A stretch of 64,000 nucleotides of DNA from an uncultured Acidobacteriota bacterium (lineage in GTDB: Bacteria; Acidobacteriota; Vicinamibacteria; Fen-336), in NCBI GenBank assembly GCA_902826455.1, contig CADEEV010000015.1, positions 1 to 64,000 of the forward strand, written 5' to 3'. Made by a program: the position numbers and the translations under genes. The notes under the pieces were generated by a model that worked only from the letters and a program-made list of their open reading frames with translations, searched no databases and was not told the origin of the DNA. Each line of letters begins with the position of its first letter. Position 1 is the first letter of the stretch. Shown piece by piece: positions 2,660 through 59,423 of this stretch.

Positions 2660-4078
2660 TTGGCGAGCAGCGAGACCTTCGACCTCACCGTCATCGGGAG
2701 CGGACCGGGCGGCTACGTGGCCGCGATCCGGGCCTCCCAGATGGGGCTCAAGACCGCCGTCGTCGAGCGAGACCCGATCGGCACGGGCGGCACCTGCCTC
2801 CTCCGCGGCTGCATCCCCACGAAGGCGCTGCTCCACACCGCCGACCTGTGGGAGGAGATGAAGCACGGCAAGGACTACGGCATCCTGGCCGACAACCTGC
2901 GCCTCGACTTCGCGGCGGTCCAGTCCCGCAAGAACCGTATCGTCACACGCCTCAGCAAGGGCATCGAGAGCTACCTCTTCAAGAAGAACAAGATCACGCT
3001 GTTCAAGGGCCACGGCCGCATCGAGGGCCGCAGCGTCGTCGTGAAGGGCGCCGAGGGCGAGACGAAGGTCGACTCCAAGAACATCATGCTCGCCACGGGC
3101 TCGAAGCCCCGCAGCCTCCCCGGCATCGTGCCCGACGGCAAGGCGATCCTGACCTCGGACGACATCCTGCAGATCGCGGAAGTCCCGAAGAGCATGATCG
3201 TGATCGGCGCCGGCGCCGTGGGCATGGAGTTCGCCTCGATCTTCGCGCGCTTCGGCACCCAGGTGACGGTGATCGAGCTGCTCCCGCGCGTGCTGCCCCT
3301 CGAGGACGAGGAGATCTCGGCCGAGGCCGGCAAGCTCCTGGGCAAGTTCATGACGATCCACACGGGGGCCCGCACCGAGGCCGCCCTCAAGACCTCCGCC
3401 GGCGTCGAGGTCGCGTTCCGCACCGCGAGCGGCGAGGCCAAGAGCGTCACCGCCGACATCCTGCTCGTGGCCGTGGGCCGCGGGCCGGTCACCGACGGGC
3501 TGGGCCTCGAGAACACCCGCGTCCAGCTCGAGCGCGGCTACATCCGCGTGAACCAGAAGATGGAGACCGCCGAGGCCGGCGTCTTCGCGATCGGCGACGT
3601 CGTGACGGTCGACGGCAAGCCCCACGCCCAGCTCGCCCACGTGGCCTCGGCCGAGGGCATCGGCGTCGCCGAGCGCCTGGCCGGGCACCACGTCGATCCC
3701 GTCAACTACGACCAGGTGCCTTCGGCCACGTACTGCTGGCCCGAGGTCGCCGGCGTCGGCCTGACCGAGGCCGAGGCCAAGAAGCGCGGCTACGACGTGA
3801 AGATCGGGCGCTTCCCGTTCCCCAACATCGCGAAGCCCCGCATCATCGGCCAGGACTTCGGCCTCGTGAAGATCGTCGCGGAGGCGAAGTACGACGAGGT
3901 CCTGGGCGTCCACATCGTGGGCCCCCACGCGACCGACCTGATCTCCGAGGCGTGCCTCGGCCTGCGTCTCGAGACCACCGTCGAGGAGATCGCCCGCACG
4001 ATCCATCCCCACCCGACGCTGCCCGAGGCGATGATGCAGGCCGCCGAAGCCGTCTACGGCCACGCCATCGACGCCTAG
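2660..4078 (+). CDS. lpdA: dihydrolipoyl dehydrogenase (E3)
   Basis: A 472-residue FAD-dependent disulfide oxidoreductase that reoxidises dihydrolipoamide with NAD+. The FAD-binding GSGPGG motif is at residues 13-18. The redox-active pair is Cys46/Cys51 (CLLRGCIPTK). The NAD-binding motif VIGAGAVGMEFASIF lies in the middle, the second FAD contact AIGDV follows, and the His-Pro dimer-interface motif HPHPTLPEA is near the C-terminus. The start is TTG at 2660-2662, supported by a strong AGGAGG at 2648-2653 six bases upstream. It is the first gene of the E3-E1alpha-E1beta-E2 operon. Confidence 0.95.
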   Translation: MASSETFDLTVIGSGPGGYVAAIRASQMGLKTAVVERDPIGTGGTCLLRGCIPTKALLHTADLWEEMKHGKDYGILADNLRLDFAAVQSRKNRIVTRLSKGIESYLFKKNKITLFKGHGRIEGRSVVVKGAEGETKVDSKNIMLATGSKPRSLPGIVPDGKAILTSDDILQIAEVPKSMIVIGAGAVGMEFASIFARFGTQVTVIELLPRVLPLEDEEISAEAGKLLGKFMTIHTGARTEAALKTSAGVEVAFRTASGEAKSVTADILLVAVGRGPVTDGLGLENTRVQLERGYIRVNQKMETAEAGVFAIGDVVTVDGKPHAQLAHVASAEGIGVAERLAGHHVDPVNYDQVPSATYCWPEVAGVGLTEAEAKKRGYDVKIGRFPFPNIAKPRIIGQDFGLVKIVAEAKYDEVLGVHIVGPHATDLISEACLGLRLETTVEEIARTIHPHPTLPEAMMQAAEAVYGHAIDA

Positions 4079-4085
4079 ACCTTCG

Positions 4086-5135
4086 ATGGCCAGGCCACCG
4101 GCGGCTCAGCTCTCGCGGCCCCAGCTCGTGGAGCTGTTCCACTTCATGAAGCTCAACCGCATGGTGGAAGAGCGCCTCACGAACCTGTACCGCCAGAACA
4201 AGGTGGTGGGCGGCCTCTACCGGAGCCTGGGCCAGGAGGCCTCGTCGGTGGGCGCCGCCTACGCCCTCGAGCGCGGCGACATCTTCACGCCCCTGATCCG
4301 CAACCTCGGCGCGATCTTCGTGCGCGGCGGCAAGCCCCGCGACGTGCTCTGCCAGTACATGGCCCGCCAGGACGGGCCCACCCGGGGCCGCGACCTCAAC
4401 GTCCACTTCGGCTGGCTGCGCGAGGACGGCAGCAACATCGCCGTGATCTCGATGCTCGGCGACATGGTGTCGATCCTGGCCGGCGCCGTGATCGCGGAAC
4501 GCATGAAGGGCAAGACGACGGTCGCCCTCACCTGGATCGGGGACGGCGGGACGTCGACGGGCGCCTTCCACGAAGGCTTCAACCTCGCCTGCGTGCAGAA
4601 GGCGCCGCTCGTGGTGGTGGTCGAGAACAACCAGTACGCGTACTCGACGCCGACCCGGATGCAGACCGCCAACACGCGCTTCGTGGACCGCGCCCAGGCC
4701 TACGGCTGCTTCGGCGAGCGGATCGACGGCAACGACGTCGTGGCGGTCTACGAGGCCACGCGCGTCGCGATCGAGCGGGCCCGCAACGGCGAGGGCCCGA
4801 CGCTGATCGAGGCCGAGACCATGCGCATGCGCGGCCACGCCGAGCACGACGACATGAAGTACGTGCCGGAGGCGCTCGTCGCGGAATGGCAGAAGAAGGA
4901 TCCGATCGCGCGCTTCGAGACCCACCTGCTCGAGAAGAACCTGGCGGCCCAGTCGGACCTCGACGCGATCGTCGCGATGATCGAGCGCCAGCTCGACGCA
5001 GACGTCGCCTTCGCCGAGGCAAGCCCGTTCCCCGCGGCCGACACCGGCCTCGACGGGGTCTACGGCGACGTGGCGGTGAAGTCCCCGGTGCCGCCGATCG
5101 TCAGCGCCTGGGACGCCGCGAAGGGACGCGGCTGA
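4086..5135 (+). CDS. 2-oxoacid dehydrogenase E1 component, alpha subunit
   Basis: A 349-residue thiamine-diphosphate enzyme subunit that, with E1beta, decarboxylates a 2-oxoacid and passes the acyl group to lipoyl-E2. The ThDP motif begins with GDG at 152-154 and ends with NN at 181-182 (WIGDGGTSTGAFHEGF ... ENNQYA). A phosphorylation-loop-like region MRGHAEHDDMKY follows. It starts seven bases after lpdA and overlaps E1beta in a TGATG junction. Whether the substrate is pyruvate, branched-chain 2-oxoacids or acetoin cannot be settled from sequence. The gene order and separate alpha/beta subunits fit any of them. Confidence 0.9.
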   Translation: MARPPAAQLSRPQLVELFHFMKLNRMVEERLTNLYRQNKVVGGLYRSLGQEASSVGAAYALERGDIFTPLIRNLGAIFVRGGKPRDVLCQYMARQDGPTRGRDLNVHFGWLREDGSNIAVISMLGDMVSILAGAVIAERMKGKTTVALTWIGDGGTSTGAFHEGFNLACVQKAPLVVVVENNQYAYSTPTRMQTANTRFVDRAQAYGCFGERIDGNDVVAVYEATRVAIERARNGEGPTLIEAETMRMRGHAEHDDMKYVPEALVAEWQKKDPIARFETHLLEKNLAAQSDLDAIVAMIERQLDADVAFAEASPFPAADTGLDGVYGDVAVKSPVPPIVSAWDAAKGRG

Positions 5136-6109
5136 TGCCCGTCGTCACCTATCTCGAAGCGATCCGCCTCGCGATGCTCGAGGAGATGCAGAAGGACGAG
5201 CGCGTGTTCGTCATCGGCGAGGACGTCGGCACCTACGGCGGCGCGTTCCGCGTCACCGCGGGCTTCCTCGACGCCTTCGGCCCGAAGCGCGTCATCGACA
5301 CGCCGATCAGCGAGTCCGCGATCCTGGGCGCTTCGATCGGCGCCGCCCTCATGGGCATGCGGCCGATCGCGGAGATGCAGTTCATCGACTTCATCGCCTG
5401 CGGCTTCGACATGCTCGTGAACTACGCCGCGAAGAGCCGCTATCGCTGGGGCGCCGGCGTGCCCATGGTGGTGCGCGGGCCGTGCGGCGGCGGCGTCCAC
5501 GGCGGCCCGTTCCACAGCCAGAACCCCGAGGCGTACTTCATGAACGTCCCGGGCCTCAAGATCGTGGCGCCCGGGACCGCCCTCGACGCGAAGGGCCTGA
5601 TGACCGCGGCCATCCGCGATCCCGATCCCGTGATCTTCCTCGAGCACAAGTTCCTCTACCGCCGCATCAAGGAAGACGTCCCCGAGGGCGAGGTCGTGAC
5701 GCCGATCGGCAAGGCCCGCGTCGCCCGGGAGGGCAAGGACCTGTCGATCGTCACGTACGCGGCCATGCTCCACGTCGCCCTCGACGCGGCGGAGGCGGCG
5801 GCGAAGGACGGCATCAGCGTGGAGGTCCTCGACCTGCGGACGCTGCTGCCCTACGACGAGGAAGCGGTCCTCGCGACCGCGGCCAGGACCGGCAAGGTGA
5901 TCGTGCTCCACGAGGCGACGCGCACGGGCGGCCCCGGCGGCGAGATCGCCGCCACCATCGCCGAGCGCGTCTTCGAGCACCTCGACGCGCCGGTCGTGCG
6001 CCTGGCGCCCCCCGACACGCCGGTGCCGTACGCGCCGACGCTGGAGGAGGCATTCCTGCCGAACGCCGCGAGCGTCGGCAAGGCGATCCGGGCGCTGTAT
6101 GATTACTGA
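5135..6109 (+). CDS. 2-oxoacid dehydrogenase E1 component, beta subunit
   Basis: A 324-residue transketolase-like subunit. The N-terminal pyrimidine-binding half has the conserved GEDVG (about residues 28-32) and FGPKRVIDTPISE segments. The C-terminal transketolase domain includes VLDLRTLLPYDEEA and the VVLHEATRTGGPGGEIAA region typical of E1beta. The ATG overlaps the E1alpha stop by one base (TGATG at 5133-5137), indicating coupled translation of the two E1 subunits in equal amounts. Confidence 0.92.
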   Translation: MPVVTYLEAIRLAMLEEMQKDERVFVIGEDVGTYGGAFRVTAGFLDAFGPKRVIDTPISESAILGASIGAALMGMRPIAEMQFIDFIACGFDMLVNYAAKSRYRWGAGVPMVVRGPCGGGVHGGPFHSQNPEAYFMNVPGLKIVAPGTALDAKGLMTAAIRDPDPVIFLEHKFLYRRIKEDVPEGEVVTPIGKARVAREGKDLSIVTYAAMLHVALDAAEAAAKDGISVEVLDLRTLLPYDEEAVLATAARTGKVIVLHEATRTGGPGGEIAATIAERVFEHLDAPVVRLAPPDTPVPYAPTLEEAFLPNAASVGKAIRALYDY

Positions 6110-54232: not shown

Positions 54233-54619
54233 ATGAAGATCCGATTGATGCTCGTCCTTTCGATGCTGACCGCCGCCGTCGTGCCGCAGGCCCTCGCCCA
54301 GGAGCACCTGGTGAACCCGGCCACAGTCGCCGACCGCCTCTCGGAGCACCAGGCGCAGCGCGACTCGGACATCGCCGCGGTCCGGCAGGTGCTCGCGACA
54401 CCCCAGGCCGCCGACGCCATGAAGACGCTCGGCGCCAACCCGGCCGAAGTGAACGCCGGCGTCGCGGCCCTGAGCTCCTCGGAGCTGCAGGACCTGGCGT
54501 CCAGGGCGCGGGCCCTCAACGTGGATCCCGTCGCCGGTCTCAGCCGCGACGTGAACACGCTGCTCGTGGTCTTCCTGATCGTGGCGATCGTGATCCTGGT
54601 GATCGCCGCCGTCGACTAG
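54233..54619 (+). CDS. PA2779-like exported protein
   Basis: A 128-residue protein with signal peptide (LVLSMLTAAVVPQALA), a helical middle part (AAVRQVLATPQAADAMKTLG, ALSSSELQDLASRARAL) and a C-terminal transmembrane helix (LLVVFLIVAIVILVIAAV). This three-part layout matches PA2779/DUF6627-type proteins, often encoded beside a PA2778 cysteine peptidase, which is absent here. GAGGAA precedes the ATG. The 180 bases upstream hold no other gene. Confidence 0.72.
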   Translation: MKIRLMLVLSMLTAAVVPQALAQEHLVNPATVADRLSEHQAQRDSDIAAVRQVLATPQAADAMKTLGANPAEVNAGVAALSSSELQDLASRARALNVDPVAGLSRDVNTLLVVFLIVAIVILVIAAVD

Positions 54620-54667: not shown

Positions 54668-56482
54668 TCAGGGGTTCGGCTTGAACTCCTGCCGGTACCG
54701 GTAGCGCACCCGGACCTTCACGCCGTCCTTCTGGGCCGGCTCGAACTTCCAGGACGCGATCGCGTCGATGACGGCCTGGTCGAGCAGCTCGCCCGCGGAC
54801 TCGACGACCCGCGGCTCGATCACCTCGCCCTTCTCGGTCACGATCATCTCGACGCCGACGGCGCCGTGGAGCTTCAGGCGGGCCGCGACGCGCGGGTACG
54901 CCGCGGGCGAGCCCTCGATGCGCTGCGGAACCTTGACGCCGGGCCCCATCTCGACCAGGTCGCCCTCGCCCACCCAGCCGCCGGGCCGGCCCTGCGAGGC
55001 CTCGCCCTTGGCCGCCGGCTCGAGCACGGCGTCGAGGCTCGCCTCTTCGCCGGCCGCCGCCTCGATGGCCCGGCTCCAGGGCTTGAAGCCCTCGCGCTCG
55101 ACGCGGACCGAATGGCTCCCCGGGCCGACCGGGAGGCTCGTGAGCGGCGTGTTGCCGACCAGCAAGTCGTCGATGCTCACGGCCGAGCCGACGGGCTGCG
55201 AGCTGACGCTGAGGAACGCCGCGATGGGCTGGAGCTTGAAGCGCACGGGCACGGCCTCGGCGCCGGCCACGAGCTCGAAGCCGACCTCGGCCGACTCGAA
55301 GCCGTCGCGCACGACCTTGACGGTGTGGGGGCCGGGCGTCATGTCCTGGCGGAAGACGGGCGACACGCCCACGGGCGCGCCGTCGATCAGGACGTTGGCC
55401 CCGCTGGGCTGCGTCTCGATCGCCATCGTCGCCATCGGCGGCTTGCGGGTGACGCTCGCGGCCCAGGCGGCCCCGATCAGGGCCAGGCCCAGCACCGCGG
55501 CGACGCCGAAGCCGGGGCTGAGCAACGTCCTCCCCACCGCCGACCGGCGCGCGGGGGACTCGACGAGGTCGTGGGTCTCGATCTCGGGCGGCAGCACGTT
55601 CGGGGAGGGCGCCATCGTCGCGACCATGGCCGGGAACGAGCCCGACTCGGCCGTGCGCTTGCCCGCAAGGGCGTCGACGAAGCCGCGTGCGGTGCTGAAG
55701 CGCGCCGCCGGATCCTTGGAGAGCGCGCGCCGGAAGACCTCGTCGAACCTCGCCGTCAGGGCCGCGTTCGCCTGGGACGGAGCCATCGGCTCCTCGTTGA
55801 CGACGCGGTAGATCACGCCCGTGACGCTGTCGCCGGTGAACGGCCGGTGCCCGGTGAGCATCTCGTAGGCCACGACGCCGAGGGAGAAAAGGTCCGTGCG
55901 GGGCGTCGCCTCGCCGTGGGCGATCTGCTCGGGCGCCATGTACGACGGCGAGCCCAGGAACTCGCCCTTCGCCGTGACGATCGAGGACTCGAAGTGCGCG
56001 ACGCCGAAGTCCATGATCTTCGGGCGCCCGTCCGTGAGGATCATGATGTTCGCGGGCTTCACGTCGCGGTGCACGATGCCCTTGGAGTGGGCGTGGTCGA
56101 GGGCGTCGGCCAGCGGCTCGAGGATCGGCAGCGCCTCGTCGAGGCCCAGGCTGCCGCGCTCCGCCAGGATGCGCTGGAGCGTCACGCCGGTGAGCAGCTC
56201 CATCACGAAGTAGTTCTCGCCGACGTCGTGGACGGTCACGATGTGGGGATGCGAGAGCAGCGCGGCGGCCCGCGCCTCGCGCTCGAAGCGCCGCACGTAG
56301 TCGGCGCCGCCCTCTTCGTTCACGATCTCGGGACGGGGCGTCTTCACGCAGACCTCGCGCTGCGCGAGAGGATCGAAGGCGCGATAGACGCGCCCCATGG
56401 AGCCCTCTCCGAGCCGCGCGCGCGCCTCGTAGCGACCGAACGTCTCCGTCGCCACCTCGCCCTGGATGTTCTCTTCCGTCAT
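54668..56482 (-). CDS. Ser/Thr protein kinase fused to two PEGA domains and a TonB C-terminal domain
   Basis: A 604-residue transmembrane kinase. Kinase domain about 17-275: glycine loop LGEGSMGRVYRA, Lys47, HRD at 138-140, Lys142, Asn145, DFG at 158-160, APE in YMAPEQ. A transmembrane helix at 322-342 puts the rest in the periplasm: PEGA domain 1 (about 352-418), PEGA domain 2 (about 423-487), then a TonB C-terminal-type domain (about 520-603, AAYPRVAARLKLHGAVGVEM, SWKFEPAQKDG). All catalytic residues are present. The TonB-like end normally contacts outer-membrane receptors, so this joins envelope contact with cytoplasmic phosphorylation. Confidence 0.92.
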   Translation of the reverse strand: MTEENIQGEVATETFGRYEARARLGEGSMGRVYRAFDPLAQREVCVKTPRPEIVNEEGGADYVRRFEREARAAALLSHPHIVTVHDVGENYFVMELLTGVTLQRILAERGSLGLDEALPILEPLADALDHAHSKGIVHRDVKPANIMILTDGRPKIMDFGVAHFESSIVTAKGEFLGSPSYMAPEQIAHGEATPRTDLFSLGVVAYEMLTGHRPFTGDSVTGVIYRVVNEEPMAPSQANAALTARFDEVFRRALSKDPAARFSTARGFVDALAGKRTAESGSFPAMVATMAPSPNVLPPEIETHDLVESPARRSAVGRTLLSPGFGVAAVLGLALIGAAWAASVTRKPPMATMAIETQPSGANVLIDGAPVGVSPVFRQDMTPGPHTVKVVRDGFESAEVGFELVAGAEAVPVRFKLQPIAAFLSVSSQPVGSAVSIDDLLVGNTPLTSLPVGPGSHSVRVEREGFKPWSRAIEAAAGEEASLDAVLEPAAKGEASQGRPGGWVGEGDLVEMGPGVKVPQRIEGSPAAYPRVAARLKLHGAVGVEMIVTEKGEVIEPRVVESAGELLDQAVIDAIASWKFEPAQKDGVKVRVRYRYRQEFKPNP

Positions 56483-56587: not shown

Positions 56588-57553
56588 CTACGGCTGTTTC
56601 AAGCGATTCTCCGCCCGCTCGTCGAAGCCGGCGCCGGCGACATAGGACCCCGGCGCGACGGGGTAGCCAGCATCGTGCAGGATCCAGAGGTACCAGCTCT
56701 GCACAGCTTCGAACGGGCCCCGGGGTCCGGCTGTGACGATGGGGCCCTCGGCGATCCACTCGTAGACGTCGGCTCCGAGCGTGCACTTGATCCGATCGTT
56801 GGTGAGGACCGCACCCTTCTCGAACGGGTAGCCGGCGCGGGGTACGAGGGAGAAGAAGATCCTGCCCTTGCCGGGGATGCCCACCCAGACCAGCTCGCCC
56901 TGAACGGACACGCCGCCCTCGTCGTCTGAATACACGGGCTCTCCGTTGACGTACAACTTTGCCTCCAGGAGCTGGAGCCAGACGTCTTCGGGAACGAAGT
57001 CCTGAGGCGGCAACACCTCGCGCCCCTTTCGGCGCGGGGCGCCGAGCACCAGGCGGTCCGTGACCCGTGCGCCCGTCGCTTCGTCGGCCAGGAGATCGAT
57101 CGACAACGTTTCGCCGACCTTCAAGGGCTGCGGCTTCGGAAAGCGCTGCGCGCTCGATATGCGGCGCGGTGCCTCGCAGGCGCGGCAGTAGTCACGCCAG
57201 CCGCCCGTCTGGAAGTCCCGCGCAGCGTCGTCCGAGAGCTCGCCCAGCGTCACCACCACGCTCCCTGGCGCGGCACCGGGCTCCACTCCGACGTCGTAGC
57301 CGTAGAACAGGCCGCGCGCGGCGTCCATGAAGATACGGTGAACCCGGCGCGTCGGAACCCCACGTGTCTCGGTCGTGGCCACGAGGTCCATGTTGGCCCG
57401 TGGCACGAGGGTCGTGAACTCCAGACGAACGTGCGTTCGGTCACGTAGCGAGAAGACTTGAGTGGCCCGCGCGCGCGGCGCCGAGACCCGCTCTTCGGAG
57501 GGCGCCGCGGCAGCGAGAGTCGCCACAAACGCCAGGAGACTAAGGCCGAGCAT
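56588..57553 (-). CDS. exported protein of unknown function (DUF-like, sigma-operon)
   Basis: A 321-residue protein with signal peptide (LGLSLLAFVATLAAAAPS) and a mature region with no transmembrane helix. One CRAC pair could bind metal or form a disulfide. Strands such as VHRIFMDAARGLFYGYDVG and VWVGIPGKGRIFFSLVPRAGY suggest two beta domains. Not recognised. GGGAGG (minus strand 57564-57559) five bases before the ATG fixes the start. Third gene after the ECF sigma factor and anti-sigma-like gene, so a candidate regulon member. About 105 bases follow to the kinase gene. Confidence 0.7.
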   Translation of the reverse strand: MLGLSLLAFVATLAAAAPSEERVSAPRARATQVFSLRDRTHVRLEFTTLVPRANMDLVATTETRGVPTRRVHRIFMDAARGLFYGYDVGVEPGAAPGSVVVTLGELSDDAARDFQTGGWRDYCRACEAPRRISSAQRFPKPQPLKVGETLSIDLLADEATGARVTDRLVLGAPRRKGREVLPPQDFVPEDVWLQLLEAKLYVNGEPVYSDDEGGVSVQGELVWVGIPGKGRIFFSLVPRAGYPFEKGAVLTNDRIKCTLGADVYEWIAEGPIVTAGPRGPFEAVQSWYLWILHDAGYPVAPGSYVAGAGFDERAENRLKQP

Positions 57554-57902
57554 CGTCGCCTCCCGGACCATCGATCCTCACGTGGACGTCGTCGAGCGGT
57601 CGCAGGTTCGCGAGCCCGCCCCGATCGGTCACCTCGGAAGCGGCGCCTCCCGGAACCGATGGATCCCGTAGCCCCCGCCCAGCAAGGGCGCCGAGCAGGA
57701 GCAGGCCGATGGCGATGAGAGCGGCCAGCGGCAGAGGCAGCACGATCCGCCGGGCCGAGCTTCGCGACGCGCCCCCGAGCTCGGCCCGGTAGGAACGCCG
57801 CATTCGATCGCTCAGGCCTTCCGACGGGGCCTCCACCTTCCAACGACTCAGCAGCGCGTGCAGCTCCTTCGAACCCTTGTCGTCGTCGCCTTCTTCCGTC
57901 AT
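57540..57902 (-). CDS. membrane anti-sigma-factor-like protein
   Basis: A 120-residue protein: acidic N-terminal cytoplasmic part (TEEGDDDKGSKELHALLSRWKVEAPSE in pieces, ending SDRMRRSYRAELGG), one transmembrane helix (about 52-72, LPLPLAALIAIGLLLLGALAG) and a short periplasmic tail. ATG overlaps the sigma-factor stop and its own stop lies inside the next gene's leader region. Gene order and topology fit an anti-sigma factor, although no zinc-binding anti-sigma HxxxCxxC motif is present. Confidence 0.68.
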   Translation of the reverse strand: MTEEGDDDKGSKELHALLSRWKVEAPSEGLSDRMRRSYRAELGGASRSSARRIVLPLPLAALIAIGLLLLGALAGRGLRDPSVPGGAASEVTDRGGLANLRPLDDVHVRIDGPGGDDARP

Positions 57903-58462
57903 CGGCTTCCCTCCTCGGCTTCCGGCATCAGTGCGGCCCGCAGGCTGACTCGAGCGCGATGCAGGCGTGACTTGACCGCTCCGATCTCGATGTCGACGAT
58001 CCGCGCCACCTCGGCGAGCGACAGCTCCTCGTACTCGACGAGGACGACGACCTCGCGCTGGAGGGGCGGCAGGGCCAGGACGGCGTCCCGGATGCGCCGA
58101 GCGTCCTCGTCCTCGATCAGGACCTGCAGTGCCCGCGCTGGGCCGCCCGCGTCCGGCAAGTCGGACCACGCCTCCCGCCCACCCTGCAGCGTTCGCTTCA
58201 GCGCCTGGTTCCTGGCGGCTGCACACAGGTAGGTGCGCAACGAGGCGCGAGCGGGATCGAAGGCCTGCGGGTGGCGGAGCAGCGAGAGGAAACAGTCGTG
58301 AACGACGTCCTCGGCGGCGTCGATCGACCCGAGCATCCGGCAGGCGAAGCGGAAGAGCACGTCGCGATGCCGCTCGTAGAGGACGACGAAGGCATCCTCT
58401 TCACCCTGGGCCGCTCGTGCGAGCAAGGCTCGATCGCTCGGATCCTCGGCTGAGTCCTTCAT
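57899..58462 (-). CDS. ECF-type RNA polymerase sigma factor
   Basis: A 187-residue sigma-70 family (RpoE/ECF) factor. Region 2: FVVLYERHRDVLFRFACRML and AAEDVVHDCFLSLLRHP, with the -10 recognition helix in SLRTYLCAAARNQALKR. Region 4: LPPLQREVVVLVEYEELSLAEVARIVDIE, split at the turn, and the recognition helix GAVKSRLHRARVSLR. Co-transcribed with the anti-sigma-like and exported-protein genes. Minus-strand TAACAA lies 12 bases before the ATG, so the leader is short. Confidence 0.92.
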   Translation of the reverse strand: MKDSAEDPSDRALLARAAQGEEDAFVVLYERHRDVLFRFACRMLGSIDAAEDVVHDCFLSLLRHPQAFDPARASLRTYLCAAARNQALKRTLQGGREAWSDLPDAGGPARALQVLIEDEDARRIRDAVLALPPLQREVVVLVEYEELSLAEVARIVDIEIGAVKSRLHRARVSLRAALMPEAEEGSR

Positions 58463-59108: not shown

Positions 59109-59423
59109 CTAGTCGCTGTCGCCGCTCCCGTCCTCGTTCTCTTTCCACATGTACTTGATGTTGTGCTTGAGAAGGAGGATGTTCGGCGCGTCCGTGCGGT
59201 GGACCTTGAGGGCGTGCTTGTCGTACCACTCGATGACACCGCGCAGCTCCTCGCCGTCCTTGAGGAGGATGACCATGCGCGTCTTGTTCGACATCTGCTT
59301 CGAGTAGTAGAAGCTCTCGGCGCTCGTCTGCTCCGGCGGCACGGGCTTCCGCGCGCGGAACTTCGGCGACGTGGTCATGTGCTCCTTGATCTCGGAGAGA
59401 TCGGGCCGGATCAGCTTTCGCAT
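59109..59423 (-). CDS. LSm/Hfq-like RNA-binding protein
   Basis: A 104-residue protein. An N-terminal extension of about 30 residues precedes an Sm-fold core: EQTSAESFYYSKQMSNKTRM, VILLKDGEELRGVIEWYDKH (Sm1 strands) and ALKVHRTDAPNILLLKHNIKYMW, split by turns (Sm2). The core matches Hfq-like proteins of Acidobacteriota, where KH of classical Hfq YKH is retained in LLKHNIKYM. The acidic C-terminal tail (ENEDGSGDSD) resembles the regulatory tail of Hfq. Probable sRNA chaperone, hexameric by family precedent. Confidence 0.8.
   Translation of the reverse strand: MRKLIRPDLSEIKEHMTTSPKFRARKPVPPEQTSAESFYYSKQMSNKTRMVILLKDGEELRGVIEWYDKHALKVHRTDAPNILLLKHNIKYMWKENEDGSGDSD

Follow-up and report, generated by a model that had tools for sequence, protein, structure and literature searches.

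A Ser/Thr kinase with PEGA repeats and a TonB-type C-terminal domain belongs to a protein family spread through Acidobacteriota

Introduction

Bacterial receptor kinases are known mostly through PASTA-type cell-wall sensing. PASTA kinases such as PknB, PrkC and Stk1 join a cytoplasmic Hanks-type kinase, through a single helix, to repeated extracytoplasmic domains, and the PASTA repeats of PknB bind peptidoglycan. Among receptor-like kinases, outer parts built of PEGA or PASTA are already known. FecA-FecR-FecI surface signalling reports the state of TonB-dependent receptors to the cytoplasm; it relies on the receptor's own signalling domain together with an anti-sigma protein, with neither a TonB_C head nor a kinase.

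The receptor signalling domain of surface signalling has been described, as has the addition of a receptor's TonB box, as a strand, to beta-3 of TonB; energised TonB also requires a histidine in its membrane helix, and TonB(H20A) is inactive (PMC11658791). In Myxococcus xanthus, the membrane protein GltG (PglI) unites FHA with TonB_C, and it is the candidate partner of AglR, a motor protein (PMC3169522). Anabaena SjdR was considered as an earlier example of a TonB-like protein outside transport and dropped, its paper giving it no TonB-like periplasmic domain. Here, we analyse a 604-residue kinase from an Acidobacteriota genome that is set apart among known receptor-like kinases by its TonB-type head.

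Results

The kinase gene lies at 54668-56482 on the minus strand of the window, the 64,000-nucleotide stretch of DNA that was analysed. It begins with ATG, and its open reading frame has exactly these bounds. A first-pass annotation, which named no strand, had proposed a chain of kinase, single membrane helix, two PEGA domains and TonB_C, and this layout was borne out by hydropathy and by Pfam, with each domain well above its cut-off. Pfam places Pkinase at residues 18-264 (E 1.5e-46), PEGA in two stretches (family E 2.3e-28, 98.4 bits against a cut-off of 20.8) and TonB_C at residues 527-601 (E 1.4e-17, 64.4 bits against 24.6); the NCBIfam model tonB_Cterm concurs (47.3 bits against 27.1). 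The membrane helix spans residues 326-344 (55451-55507, Kyte-Doolittle 2.01). It is followed by a first PEGA domain at about residues 352-420 (55223-55429, with strands at 351-416 in the model) and a second, the best Pfam stretch, at residues 424-490 (55013-55213). A linker of residues 491-520 (54923-55012) leads to the head and averages 21% pairwise identity, against 54% in TonB_C. Its first half is poorly conserved, and its second half, which runs into TonB_C, is conserved as the motif LVEMGPGVKVPQRI (consensus LVELGPDxxPPxRI). A chance or mis-called fusion is ruled out, as Pkinase, PEGA and TonB_C occur in the same order in 14 of 14 aligned sequences. Scanning the locus for promoters and terminators found none.

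An AlphaFold2 model built with 14 homologues (mean pLDDT 79.6) was confident for the kinase and two all-beta PEGA domains, reached a pLDDT of ~94 in the head and was of low confidence between kinase and stalk. The kinase domain, residues 16-272 (55667-56437), was delimited by Pfam, fold match and invariant residues. K47, E69, the catalytic loop H138-R139-D140 (56063-56071), N145, the D158-F159-G160 motif (56003-56011) and P184-E185 are identical in 14 of 14 aligned sequences; judged by these residues, the domain is catalytically intact. Whole-chain Foldseek matched PknB (TM-score 0.87 by target) and PknA. PASTA kinases are thus both the closest kinase fold and the top NCBIfam relative of the protein. 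It nevertheless scores 288 bits against that family's cut-off of 450, and Pfam finds no PASTA domain in it; PEGA and TonB_C stand there instead. The PknB/PknA likeness of the fold speaks for an explanation that we consider unlikely, in which the protein is a cell-wall sensor or tether whose PEGA-TonB_C part binds peptidoglycan or a periplasmic protein and whose head has nothing to do with transporters.

Because only kinases stood among the listed whole-chain Foldseek matches, we modelled the TonB_C head, residues 521-601 (54680-54922), on its own (pLDDT 86). The first 17 PDB matches of this model were TonB-type C-terminal domains, from both crystal and NMR structures. The top match was FoxA-bound TonB (6i97_D, E 1.5e-6, TM-score 0.86 by target), with 9dc4_T, 2gsk_B and 2grx_C among those further down; the list includes TonB of a transferrin receptor complex and BtuB-bound and FhuA-bound TonB. 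A PDB sequence search with the C-terminal part agreed, its best ten matches being TonB chains, led by TonB of the Pseudomonas FoxA complex. The first-pass annotation would have fallen had the domain failed to match a TonB_C profile or lacked the receptor-binding strand. The profile matches are strong in both Pfam and NCBIfam, and the strand appears in the models as a long last edge strand (residues 588-600, 54683-54721; DSSP on the models, with its position taken from the fold match). We infer that this edge is where a TonB box would be added. The head thus resembles TonB in sequence and fold, its predicted TonB-box-binding edge included, and the alignment also places the TonB_C hallmark, a YP dipeptide, at residues 529-530 (54893-54898). 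Retention of YP and of the receptor-bound TonB fold argues against a head devoted to the cell wall.

Conservation is graded along the chain. Among 11 anchored orthologs, mean pairwise identity is 61% in the kinase, 54% in TonB_C and 45% in each PEGA domain, and it drops to 21-23% in the linker, membrane helix and juxtamembrane region. The head is therefore conserved well above its flanking linkers, as expected for a domain under selection. Strand addition needs no particular side chains, so the sequence does not name the ligand.

The annotation had also held that the energy module ExbB/ExbD is missing, and this stands. The locus, on contig C15, has neither gene, and the two ExbB-like genes of the genome lie on C30 and C4. 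In addition, the S/TxxxH motif is absent from the membrane helix of all 42 anchored kinase-TonB_C proteins, the 604-residue protein included. The same genome encodes four small TonB-type proteins that do carry [S/T]xxxH, two of them beside the ExbB-like gene on C30 and one near that on C4. Lack of an energy module is thus supported by the helix itself and not by neighbours alone. Judging from its sequence, the kinase-TonB_C protein is not an energy-coupling TonB; it differs from TonB in lacking the helix motif, in having PEGA as spacer and a kinase at the N terminus, and in the want of ExbB/ExbD at its locus.

The spacer between helix and head, be it PEGA or low-complexity linker, measures 129-234 residues in 40 of the 42 anchored proteins; the genome's own motif-bearing TonBs have 116-150 residues. 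This nearness in length points to a need for the head to extend through much of the periplasm. Such a constraint on reach would fit a trans-envelope contact of the head, and it is a further point against a head that serves only as a cell-wall tether.

The 604-residue protein is not a lone case: it is one of a kinase-TonB_C family spread through Acidobacteriota, from which we collected 44 proteins. Its own genome holds 14 TonB_C domains and three kinase-PEGA-TonB_C proteins, on C15 (54668-56482), C11 (L049) and C1 (L050). A full PEGA-PEGA-TonB_C match occurs in seven of 396 genomes of the phylum, and every one of them that was collected has a kinase. Also common are kinase-TonB_C proteins that lack PEGA, with a kinase upstream in 13 of 20 large TonB_C frames from the phylum list, a figure that is not a rate, as frames matching the head and the motif leading into it were chosen by preference. 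Scanning contigs with the PEGA-TonB_C alignment as one degenerate pattern gave 10 loci, too few to describe a distribution. The TonB_C matches listed for 195 genomes of the phylum to which an Opitutales genome belongs sit mostly in frames of ~220-300 residues, and none of the 12 large TonB_C frames examined there has a kinase. That phylum also has proteins with three to five tandem TonB_C domains (L209-L213 and L215; five Pfam stretches in L211), some with a signal-peptide-like start and with no other domain found.

We then placed 97 kinase domains in a tree. TonB_C-bearing kinases fall into several clades and are mixed with head-less Acidobacteriota kinase-PEGA proteins, which have the same kinase, helix and PEGA stalk and lack only the TonB_C head. 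The head has therefore been gained or lost more than once, although exact counts cannot be relied on, given the long branches and the truncation of some rows (L029, L033) at locus ends. Head-less kinase-membrane-PEGA proteins make up 31 of the 97 rows, a few of them cut by locus ends. Their frequency shows that the outer part can work without a TonB head, and TonB_C is used outside energy coupling in the Opitutales-genome phylum, up to five per protein; both points favour a role for the outer part at the cell wall.

Next to the clade of the 604-residue protein stands a side branch of L027, L031, L050 and L171 (moderate support, 86/77). L027 and L031, from two genomes, have spacers of only 27-28 residues. 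L050 (the same gene as L011) and L171, also from two genomes, are kinase-PEGA-TonB_C proteins with no membrane helix, so their TonB_C should be cytoplasmic. With a sister clade that is helix-less or short-spacered, TonB_C cannot always mean outer-membrane contact. TonB fragments can dimerise, and the presence of PEGA and TonB_C in the presumed cytoplasm of L050 and L171 would suit a TonB_C that merely dimerises the kinase and has no outside ligand. We regard this as very unlikely: YP is present in the 13 alignment rows with a membrane helix and gone from the two helix-less relatives, and anchored members thus appear to keep more than a dimer contact. Within the 604-residue protein's own branch, as aligned, the predicted anchor and the YP hallmark are both kept.

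Other relatives join different domains to TonB_C. Five Acidobacteriota proteins have an N-terminal receiver, a membrane helix and TonB_C with no kinase: L146 (1447-3093), L147 (1547-3769), L150 (2026-3861), L156 (2395-4146) and L161 (1125-2981). In all five, Glu or Gln stands in place of the receiver's phospho-acceptor Asp. The receiver-kinase-TonB_C proteins L145, L152, L153, L155, L157, L158 and L162 have Ser or Thr at this site, and a receiver-kinase-PEGA-TonB_C protein, L048 (4390-6612), differs from the other receivers in keeping the Asp. Receiver-domain input as proof of inside-out signalling is weakened accordingly, the acceptor being Glu, Gln, Ser or Thr in all but L048. In L175 (contig C8 of the same genome as the 604-residue protein, 3547-5568), a pseudokinase is linked through a membrane helix to TonB_C, with HRD changed to GLV and DFG to GFG. 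Together with the degenerate-receiver relatives, this pseudokinase implies that the architecture can do without catalytic output.

Fusion of pseudokinase and degenerate receivers to the same helix-spacer-TonB_C module suits a further reading. In it, the head would be the effector on the envelope, perhaps an unpowered TonB occupying receptors or linking envelope machines, and the cytoplasmic kinase or pseudo-receiver would provide docking or regulation, the role that FHA may have in GltG. GltG, which joins FHA and TonB_C in one membrane protein (PMC3169522), is a precedent for coupling a cytoplasmic-type signalling domain to this head. It differs from the 604-residue protein in having FHA in place of the kinase and in being part of a gliding motor. 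Pfam finds no FHA domain in our protein, and the AgmX/PglI C-terminal domain matches it weakly (E 4.8e-5, below the NCBIfam cut-off). We judge this inside-out arrangement quite improbable, since every catalytic residue of the 604-residue kinase is conserved and a paralog of it is paired with a phosphorylation reader.

That pairing concerns the C11-type paralog (L049, L169 and L170), which in three genomes is followed by an FHA-zinc ribbon-RDD protein. In L049, and seemingly in L169 and L170, the cluster also has a signal peptidase after the FHA protein; the divergent neighbours, identified in L049, are the bacillithiol genes bshC, bshA and bshB1. Since phosphothreonine is what FHA domains read, this paralog probably has a phosphorylation output. 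An output of the same kinase-to-FHA type is plausible for the 604-residue kinase.

The genes upstream of the kinase itself were less informative. The first-pass annotation had placed the kinase downstream of an ECF sigma/anti-sigma pair. The sigma factor is sound (57899-58462, minus strand; Sigma70_r2 E 1.1e-15, Sigma70_r4_2 E 3.2e-15), and its partner (57540-57902, minus strand) is a candidate anti-sigma only, with one membrane helix (hydropathy 2.61) and no Pfam or NCBIfam match. Between this candidate and the kinase, on the same strand, lie the gene of a 327-residue secreted protein (56588-57571), likewise with no Pfam or NCBIfam match, and a gap of 105 bp. None of 21 related kinase loci carries any of the window neighbours tested, and the intervening secreted protein has no clear ortholog in 60 relatives. 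We therefore rejected the sigma-factor link as functional evidence. Elsewhere in the window, a 104-residue protein (59109-59423, minus strand) combines an N-terminal extension with a domain related to Hfq (Pfam Hfq_1, 28.6 bits, only slightly above the cut-off of 27), and a small secreted or membrane protein (54233-54619, plus strand), weakly DUF6627-like and below cut-off, is convergent with the kinase gene.

Discussion

Our best explanation, to which we give nearly an even chance, is that the protein works as a receptor-like kinase of the envelope: its head would bind a strand that a partner exposes, likeliest a TonB box, and kinase activity would change as a result. We infer its topology, ligand, activation by binding and targets. 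The kinase would lie in the cytoplasm, a single helix would cross the inner membrane, the two PEGA domains would form a periplasmic stalk and TonB_C would be the head. By strand addition, the head would pair with a beta-strand offered by some envelope partner, most probably the TonB box of an outer-membrane transporter, exposed once that transporter is loaded. Binding would alter a dimer or clamped state of the stalk, the kinase would autophosphorylate, and the signal would pass to cytoplasmic targets such as FHA proteins. With the energy-coupling helix absent, the protein would not pull on the receptor.

TonB boxes are the leading candidate ligand. With 29 Plug-domain matches, the genome offers possible ligands for the head; no receptor was seen beside the kinase gene, nor was a physical or genetic link to any receptor found. 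Should the head read receptors, the protein would resemble FecA-FecR-FecI in reporting the state of TonB-dependent receptors to the cytoplasm. A broader form of the proposal, which we offer as a rather doubtful one, is that this Acidobacteriota kinase family samples the exposed TonB boxes of loaded transporters through its TonB-type heads, with occupancy read out by phosphorylation, beside energised TonB and maybe in competition with it.

The kinase-TonB_C family is apparently undescribed so far. A search of the open literature, with subscription journals and domain-architecture databases outside its scope, returned no relevant paper joining kinase, PEGA and TonB, which is weak evidence of novelty. 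A phylum-wide family of kinases with TonB-type heads would give bacterial receptor kinases a new sensing surface, perhaps outer-membrane transporter occupancy, and would be a case of TonB's gripping domain put to use with no motor attached. Kinase-TonB_C proteins may give the cell a way to monitor the condition of its outer envelope.
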